DNA from: Fibrobacter sp.
GTDB lineage: Bacteria; Fibrobacterota; Fibrobacteria; Fibrobacterales; Fibrobacteraceae
Reading direction: 5' to 3'
Assembly: GCA_017520105.1 (NCBI GenBank)
Contig: JAFWRL010000062.1
Span: 1 to 7,780, forward strand
DNA length: 7,780 bases
In this document: positions 1-926 of the stretch, one piece after another
Numbering within the stretch: the stretch's first letter is position 1
Layout: every line of letters begins with the position of its first letter
Made by a program: the position numbers and the translations under genes
The notes under the pieces: generated by a model
Database searches by the model: none
What the model was told of the DNA's origin: nothing
What the model saw: the letters and a program-made list of their open reading frames with translations, nothing else

Positions 1-926
1 ATCTACCACGACTTCGGTTTCGACGATATCGTGGTGAAGTTCTCCACCCGCCCGGAGTAGCGTACAAGCCGAATGCAGCGAAAACAAGCTAGCTTGTTTT
101 CATTGCTGAGGCGTAGCGCAGACGCCGCAGGCGTCCAAAGCGCGTGGGTTCTGACGAAATTTGGGACAAGGCTGAAGCCGCCCTCGCCGAAGCCACGAAG
201 CTCGCAGGCCTCGACTACATTTTGAACCCGGGTGAAGGTGCCTTCTATGGCCCGAAAAGTGTGCAAAACGAGTGTCGCAGAAAAATGCTTGCATTTTTCT
301 ATGACCGAGTGCAGCCACGGACGCCATCGGCGTCAACCTCGAATTCACGCTGAAGGATAGCCTCGGTCGTGACTGGCAGTGCGGTACCATCCAGGTGGAC
401 TTCAACCTCCCGCAGCGCCTGGGTGCCGAGTATGTCGGTAAGGATAACCAGAAGCATATTCCGGTGATGCTGCACCGCGCAGCAGTCGGTTCCATCGAAC
501 GCTTCCTCGGCATCCTTATCGAAGACAGATGACAAGTCGAGAGTCGCGGTCAAACTTGTTTGACCATGACCGAGACGCATCATCTGGGGCGAAGCCCAAT
601 TCATGGGCGATTTCCCGCTGTGGCTCGCTCCGGTGCAGGCCCGCGTGCTCCCGATTTCCGAGAAGTTCGTTGACTACGCGAAGCAGGTCGAGAAGGAACT
701 CGTGAACGCCGGCGTCCGCGTGGAAGTCGATGAGTCGAATGAGAAACTCGGCTACAAGATCCGCCAGTGCGAATTGCAGAAGATTCCGTACAAGATTATT
801 GTAGGCGAAAAGGAACAGGCTGAAGGCGTTATCGCTGTCAACAAGAGAAAGGAAGGCGACAAGGGTCAGATGACTGTCGCTCAGTTCTTGGAAATGACCG
901 CAGATGACAGAAAAGTCGTTCGCTAG
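1..926 (+). CDS. thrS: Threonyl-tRNA synthetase, C-terminal part, interrupted by three structured inserts
   Basis: Class II aminoacyl-tRNA synthetase that charges tRNA-Thr in the cytoplasm; only the last ~230 codons are in the window. The coding segments are 1-57, 138-257, 338-526 and 600-926 (stop TAG 924-926), which sum to 231 codons. In order they give the STRPE|KRVGSDE region, the GEGAFYGPK motif, LEFTLKDSLGRDWQCGTIQVDF, motif 3 with HRAAVGSIERF (its His matches the zinc ligand His511 of E. coli ThrRS and its last Arg the motif 3 Arg520), and the anticodon-binding domain from WLAPVQARVLP to the end. The segments lie in three reading frames and are separated by inserts of 80, 80 and ~73 nt. 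Read straight through, translation stops at TAG 58-60. No other lesion is visible and motif residues are intact, so the exons look selected. Either the inserts are removed or bypassed, or this copy is dead and another thrS exists. Gene identity is certain; expression is not. Confidence 0.93.
58..137 (+). other. Structured insert 1 in thrS (80 nt, candidate RNA-level-removed element)
   Basis: It separates STRPE (ending at 57) from KRVGSDE (starting at 138), which are contiguous in ThrRS proteins. It opens with an in-frame TAG (58-60) and its 80 nt shift the frame. Predicted fold: P1 60-62/117-119 (GCG/CGC), bulge G116, 63-65/113-115 (UAC/GUA), bulge AA 66-67, 68-70/110-112 (GCC/GGC). Then a tandem G71.A109 and A72.G108, A73-U107, and bulged U74. 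P2 is 75-77/104-106, G78.U103, C79.A102, G80-C101 and 81-88/93-100 with loop CUAG 89-92. P3 is 121-126/130-135 with loop GCA. Two bases (CA) then lead into the exon. A one-base slide of the boundary (57-136) would also give a Glu codon. No protein is encoded. The fold is by eye and supported by inserts 2 and 3. Confidence 0.88.
258..337 (+). other. Structured insert 2 in thrS (80 nt, same fold as insert 1)
   Basis: It lies between GEGAFYGPK (Lys codon 255-257) and LEFTLKDSLGRDW (from 338). If the boundary slides by one base (259-338), the junction reads GPK-I-EF, as in E. coli ThrRS. It has no stop of its own in the upstream frame, but shifts the frame into a TGA at 351-353. Predicted fold: P1 259-261/316-318 (GUG/CAC), bulge 314-315, 262-264/311-313 (UGC/GCA), bulge AAA 265-267, 268-269/309-310 (AC/GU). 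Then tandem G270.A308 and A271.G307, G272-C306, and bulged U273. P2 is 274-276/303-305, G277.U302, C278.A301 and 279-287/292-300 with loop CUUG 288-291. P3 is 320-325/329-334 with loop AUC, followed by AAC and the exon. The P3 stem is identical to that of insert 1; P1 and P2 are not. Confidence 0.88.
527..599 (+). other. Structured insert 3 in thrS (about 73 nt, same fold)
   Basis: It lies between GSIERFLGILIE (Glu codon 521-523) and FMGDFPLWLAPVQ (from 600). One residue sits between them in ThrRS, so the boundary can slide between 524-596 and 527-599, giving Gln, Glu or Asp. TGA 530-532 is in the upstream frame. Predicted fold: P1 527-532/580-585 (AGAUGA/UCAUCU), bulge 578-579, C533-G577, bulge AA 534-535, 536-538/574-576 (GUC/GAC). 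Then tandem G539.A573 and A540.G572, G541-C571, and bulged A542. P2 is 543-545/568-570, G546.U567, C547.A566 and 548-554/559-565 with loop CUUG 555-558. P3 is 587-590/594-597 with loop GAA. It is shorter than the other two because the P2 and P3 stems are shorter; the helices with conserved geometry keep their length. Confidence 0.85.

Follow-up and report, generated by a model that had tools for sequence, protein, structure and literature searches.

Short palindromic or hairpin repeats lying both within and between genes are known as the Rickettsia palindromic elements, the REP/MITE repeats and the double-hairpin elements of fungal mitochondria. Islands that supply their host gene with a new 3' end are exemplified by e14 in the icd gene of E. 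coli and by the endonuclease elements in atp6 of fungal mitochondria. Finally, yeast mitochondria harbour byps, i.e. programmed bypass elements, and there the interrupted gene is functional. Here we analysed a stretch of 7,780 nt (hereafter the window) from Fibrobacter, a genus of rumen fibre degraders, which begins with an interrupted 3' part of thrS. Comparison with related genomes leads us to consider it likely that this thrS end is a surplus 3' copy, probably displaced by cassette exchange, and that its inserts are dispersed repeats carried without harm; the source genome presumably has an intact thrS elsewhere.

A tblastn and blastn comparison, for which an uninterrupted ThrRS of Fibrobacter (645 aa) was the query, showed that bases 1-926 of the window correspond to codons 416-645 of thrS, divided into four pieces that occupy three frames. 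The pieces, each of which aligned without internal gaps to the uninterrupted gene, were located on the plus strand at 1-57 (codons 416-434, frame 1), 138-257 (codons 435-474, frame 3), ~337/338-525 (codons 475-537, frame 2) and 598-926 (codon 537 to codon 645 and stop, frame 3). They are separated by three inserts on the same strand, at 58-137 (80 nt, thrS site 1302), 258-337 (79-80 nt, end at 336/337, site 1421) and 526-597 (72 nt, site 1610). Repeats of A or AA at the joints leave a margin of 1-3 nt on each boundary; examined for target-site duplication, these joints held 0-3 nt of A. The four ThrRS segments in three frames described by the first-pass annotation were thus confirmed by alignment, with a shift of 1-2 nt at the third boundary. 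Downstream of this tail are a terminator-like hairpin followed by a T run (1036-1071, plus strand; inverted repeat 1036-1048/1053-1065) and four genes (1094-5211; -), two unmatched, one with a FISUMP domain and one of TIGR02147. The FISUMP-domain gene adjoins the TIGR02147 gene (3281-5211), and both gave strong NCBIfam matches.

The three inserts are copies of one structured, dispersed repeat of ~72-85 nt that is not specific to thrS, for which we coined the name F-element. They fold alike, with an outer stem, an internal loop, a short stem, tandem GA/GA, one pair, a one-base bulge, a four-pair stem, a C-A mismatch and a stem of 7-9 pairs with a CUNG-type loop, followed by a small 3' hairpin. 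A covariance model was built from 46 copies and found exactly three full-length places in the window, at 56-126 (69.8 bits), 255-325 (74.7 bits) and 525-590 (62.0 bits), these matches being expected by construction since the 46 copies included the window's three. The first description of genuine and discrete out-of-frame inserts was upheld. In the 46-copy alignment, double-sided changes were seen at 20 of the 23 pairs, and 81.6% of cells paired, a fraction that fell to 64.2% in shuffles and to 34-41% when partners were slid. The outermost stem was weak (45% paired), and one of the five covariation measures, further pair types, did not exceed the shuffles (55 vs 53.0). Rfam searches over bases 1-1,100 of the window and over 15 other loci found no family for the F-element and no intron family, group I or II; weak GibS and snoR9 hits in the window, like three other Rfam hits, lay neither on the inserts nor on the conserved block described below.

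The F-element model matched all 80 Fibrobacter genomes surveyed, each of which gave 274-1284 first-look candidates and 5 to at least 62 scored copies. Species-representative genomes scanned with a pattern yielded at least 120 stretches, and 102 of the 120 listed came from records named Fibrobacter, Fibrobacteraceae or Fibrobacterales. Among loci selected by this pattern, full-length F-like matches of 35-58 bits also occurred in Treponema, Oscillospiraceae, one Clostridiales bin and one further bacterium (L022, L040, L120, L032, L095, L068, L069 and L064). As for dispersed palindromic (REP/MITE-like) repeats, many structured copies are thus present per genome. F-elements are also intergenic, and coding sequence on both sides, judged by a crude coding score, was seen in 13 rows only, eight of which, in unrelated records, are probably chance matches. 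Three cases of other genes interrupted by F were found, two in sense and one in antisense; these genes, which we take to be nuclease- or transposase-like, are apparently dispensable. Head-to-tail arrays of F-elements were observed at L018:446-669 and L065:2883-3075, the same short direct repeat preceding each unit of the latter. The Y1 transposase was rejected as the mover of F on the basis of its distribution, its domain being present in 27 of the 80 genomes vs F in 80/80.

In order to place the interrupted copy, thrS was compared across the same 80 genomes. Twenty-seven full-length copies were retrieved, each giving one uninterrupted match over the 645 codons, and the 25 that were also scanned with the F-element model held no F; in the other assemblies thrS was partial, often at contig ends, or missing, and two (G013 and G063), which may be incomplete, gave no thrS match at all. 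Fibrobacter genomes further contain extra thrS 3' pieces (hereafter tails), which carry F-elements and, where their border is visible, are devoid of the first 300-400 codons. Full-length thrS and F-bearing tails were both present in seven genomes (G043, G045, G046, G047, G048, G049 and G050), and an eighth, G051, combined a full-length thrS with a diverged fragment with F matches. These seven genomes and the 27 uninterrupted full-length genes speak for the reading as a spare copy. In G049, an intact 645-codon thrS lies ~3 kb before an F-interrupted tail to which window bases 1-525, inserts 1 and 2 included, align without gaps at 93%.

The comparison between strains suggested by the first-pass annotation therefore placed inserts 1 and 2 at the same sites in the G049 tail and in none of the 27 full-length copies. 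Inserts 1 and 2 are both common to the window, G049 and G040, with a diverged copy of insert 2 in G048, and insert 3 is common to the window and G040, which has F at all three window sites and at sites 1246 and 1536 as well. The DNA 3' of the window tail is 96-98% identical to that between thrS tails in G043 and G046, where parts of the 1094-5211 stretch recur. The first base of the window is the one just after F at site 1246 of G049/G040-type tails, and the contig seems to have been broken at this repeat. Since relatives such as G049 carry the same interrupted sequence as an extra 3' copy, the original claim that the essential thrS itself is interrupted was not supported.

The exons of the tails appear to bear the marks of selection, as had been supposed from the window alone. 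No in-frame stop was found in 12 thrS tail copies (10,098 bases), and dN/dS was 0.03-0.21 between them, compared with 0.05-0.13 between five intact genes; this set omits the last thrS piece of G040, which has 14 gap positions, and includes L222 (G029), possibly not a tail. For tails of other genes compared with their upstream copy, 320 synonymous and 131 nonsynonymous differences were counted over 25 stretches, including four in which nonsynonymous exceeded synonymous changes owing to a wrong frame or decay. The simplest reading of these sequences is that the tails were functional until recently. In a FastTree phylogeny the thrS tails scatter among the intact genes. Carriers of F at site 1246 do not form one clade (AU p 0.0006); a single clade uniting the window, G049 and G040, which carry inserts 1 and 2, was not rejected (AU p 0.33), and we dropped the claim, drawn from the FastTree topology, that these carriers are unrelated.

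The stretch between the two shared inserts speaks against the reading of recently functional tails. Within codons 435-474 the window, G049 and G040 differ by 8, 9 and 8 changes, all of them synonymous, and the adjoining pieces have a few nonsynonymous changes. Among the same three sequences insert 1 differs at 3-7 positions and insert 2 at 1-2 of 80. Pairing is kept, since in insert 1 both partners of the loop-closing pair have changed; in insert 3 a pair of the 3' hairpin is double-changed, and the outer stem is shorter in G040. This combination of silent exon changes and kept F pairing suggests either that the exons were exchanged with functional genes or that the F-bearing gene was once translated.

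Several tails follow cargo genes and a conserved RNA-like block of ~140 nt, which starts with GCGTTAGGGATAGTGACC and ends with GGGAACGCCC and forms the right border of many cassettes (L273:1401-1550, plus strand, and 18 other loci). Its fold is a closed multibranch structure in which 16 of the 36 predicted pairs are double-changed among 19 sequences; in five loci holding it, Rfam gave nothing on the block. A pattern for its 3' part was found in 56 of the 80 genomes. When the 76 blocks with at least 1.5 kb upstream were considered (three having been dropped), the DNA following the block had a same-strand match upstream in 35 cases (over at least 150 nt in 30 of these) and an opposite-strand match in a single case, bearing in mind that not all such matches are gene tails. 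NCBIfam assigned ten tail ORFs to PFOR, V-type ATP synthase subunit K, carB, valS, leuS and an SDH/FRD iron-sulfur subunit, and the tails of these genes have the same layout as those of thrS. For thrS, the island layout of a whole gene, cargo and a displaced 3' copy downstream was found in G049, G048, G050 and G046.

Pfam matches were obtained for 8 of 10 chosen neighbour proteins, namely an NgoMIV restriction enzyme, a C5 methylase, an N6/N4 methylase, two PIN proteins, a zeta-type protein, a DUF3800 protein and a kinase-helicase; no recombinase was found among these ten cargo proteins. TnpB-type nucleases (PF07282 C-terminus) were present in 1/80 genomes vs the block in 56/80, a distribution that neither fits TnpB as the mover nor assigns the cassettes to a TnpB/OMEGA system; that genome, G046, holds thirteen TnpB C-terminal matches (C5, C15, C31 and C57), and the remaining 79 genomes gave none. 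The possibility that the target segment is recoded to confer immunity against a guided nuclease was not consistent with the sequences; the intact gene often keeps the same letters there. One thrS tail array contains, at L220:9573-9623, a DUF3800-XI RNA (Rfam, 49.5 bits, gathering 37.8) that neighbours both a block and a DUF3800 gene.

In thrS tails, 27 F interruptions were recorded at ten site labels in 13 loci, 26 in sense, none in antisense and one left unscored by the script, a count that leaves aside some small tails whose sites are near 1816 and 1872. F recurs there at fixed sites, and random insertion into dead DNA would not give such a sense bias. In 60 stretches picked around blocks (792 kb), 55 F-element copies were found. 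With respect to the blocks, a sense F core lay no more than 100 nt away from 13 of 88 distinct ones, at 53-65 nt in 12 cases, and an antisense core from none, and 14/88 had a second repeat type, T, within the same distance; most blocks had neither F nor T within 100 nt, as scored by a script that misses diverged copies. The ~30-45 nt between block and F are target-gene sequence. Small thrS tails directly follow the thrS terminator or stop codon, without a block and with 5-26 nt before F, so that the idea of a constant border-to-F distance, true after blocks, fails after terminators or stop codons. The structured T repeat (GTGAGCC...GGCGA...GGTC) was seen after blocks where F would be in L321, L345, L335, L363 and others, and in L329 and L353 it apparently lies within a hairpin loop of the block itself.

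These observations bear unequally on the explanations that can be offered. An assembly error that put repeats into a normal thrS might be suspected because contigs of many assemblies begin or end within this gene, but identical inserts at identical bases in separate assemblies, one of them on a 704-kb contig, make it highly improbable. The first-pass annotation had favoured removal of the inserts at the RNA level, as mini-introns in an essential gene. Exons that can be joined to the codon, the 12 copies free of in-frame stops, the 8-9 synonymous and 0 nonsynonymous changes between two shared inserts, the sense orientation of F in 26/27 thrS-tail rows, and stem pairs kept in place by double changes would all suit mini-introns or translational bypass elements in a once-functional thrS, the uninterrupted copies being later replacements. 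Three assemblies (G040, G005 and G029) moreover list only F-bearing thrS pieces, in G005 and G029 at contig starts; those of G040 and G005 (L126) follow a block, as spare tails do, and the border of the G029 piece is not on the contig. Against this stand the 27/27 uninterrupted full-length genes, the tails lacking their first 300-400 codons where the border is visible, a dispersed F family that is also intergenic and lies antisense inside one other gene, and the lack of any group I/II match in the loci searched with Rfam, and we regard this explanation as unlikely. Introns in an essential thrS are not needed, given that full-length copies are uninterrupted while extra 3' tails carry F. The mini-intron claim and the RNA-level elimination preferred by the annotation were therefore not supported, and the alternative allowed for in its title, tolerance in a dead gene, still stands.

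Another explanation treats the block, the target-gene segment of 30-45 nt and F or T as the RNA-defined end of a mobile cassette that would install cargo and a replacement 3' end, solo F-elements being its footprints. The sense F core near 13/88 blocks (12 at 53-65 nt, antisense 0), T near 14/88, the target-gene nature of the intervening stretch, a block fold with 16/36 pairs double-changed and at least seven target genes are in line with such an end. Conversely, the searches identified neither a nuclease nor a recombinase (TnpB C-terminus in 1/80 genomes, Y1 transposase in 27/80), most blocks are without F or T within 100 nt, terminator or stop-codon borders have no block and only 5-26 nt before F, and the intact gene often retains the same letters in the target segment. 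We consider this RNA-defined end doubtful, although worth retaining. The spare copy displaced by cassette exchange has its own difficulties, i.e. the three assemblies with only F-bearing thrS pieces, the all-synonymous codons 435-474, the F copies whose pairing is maintained through double changes, the single clade of insert 1 and 2 carriers that the AU test allows, and the sense bias.

Under the spare-copy reading, cassettes would be transferred by homologous recombination whose two arms lie in the same core gene, one in the gene body and the other in the spare tail. Each transfer would leave one whole gene and import cargo, and what had been the 3' end of the recipient gene would become the new spare tail; F-elements would insert into this spare DNA, some of them arriving with the right end of the cassette. 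Such a two-arm exchange would fit the fresh tails, the varied cargo and the constant border. It leaves the sense bias and the recurring sites of F unexplained, as well as the often fixed block-to-F distance and the nearly exclusive synonymous change of the interrupted exons, and for this reason two rivals were kept, the RNA-defined cassette end and the removal or bypass of F.

A spare tail would account for an apparently broken essential gene, and it cautions that an interrupted core-gene end on a metagenome contig may belong to a spare copy. If the two-arm exchange is true, homologous recombination at core genes could spread defence genes that lack their own integrase; if the RNA-defined end is true, an undescribed class of mobile defence cassette would reside in thrS, carB, valS, leuS and others. 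For an abundant structured repeat, an RNA-like block and core-gene exchange cassettes, some with defence genes, neither an Rfam family nor a paper was found, our search for descriptions of the F-element, the block or the cassette layout being limited to the open-licence literature.

The main find here is a structured repeat family without an Rfam match, together with a core-gene cassette layout for which no description was found. The F-element resembles the known palindromic and hairpin repeats in its many copies per genome, its strong hairpin and its insertions both between and inside genes. It differs from them by its own conserved internal loops and 3' hairpin, its absence from Rfam, its sense orientation at recurring sites in thrS tails and its tie to displaced core-gene ends. 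With byps it shares the nature of a short structured insert that breaks a reading frame, but the relatives carry uninterrupted full-length thrS and bypass of F is only a candidate. Finally, the Fibrobacter cassettes are similar to the e14 and atp6 islands in that the host gene remains whole, with its displaced 3' end on the far side of the cargo, and unlike them in that the displaced ends reach 700-1,450 nt, several core genes are used, no integrase was found among the ten cargo proteins searched against Pfam, and a conserved RNA-like block marks the border.
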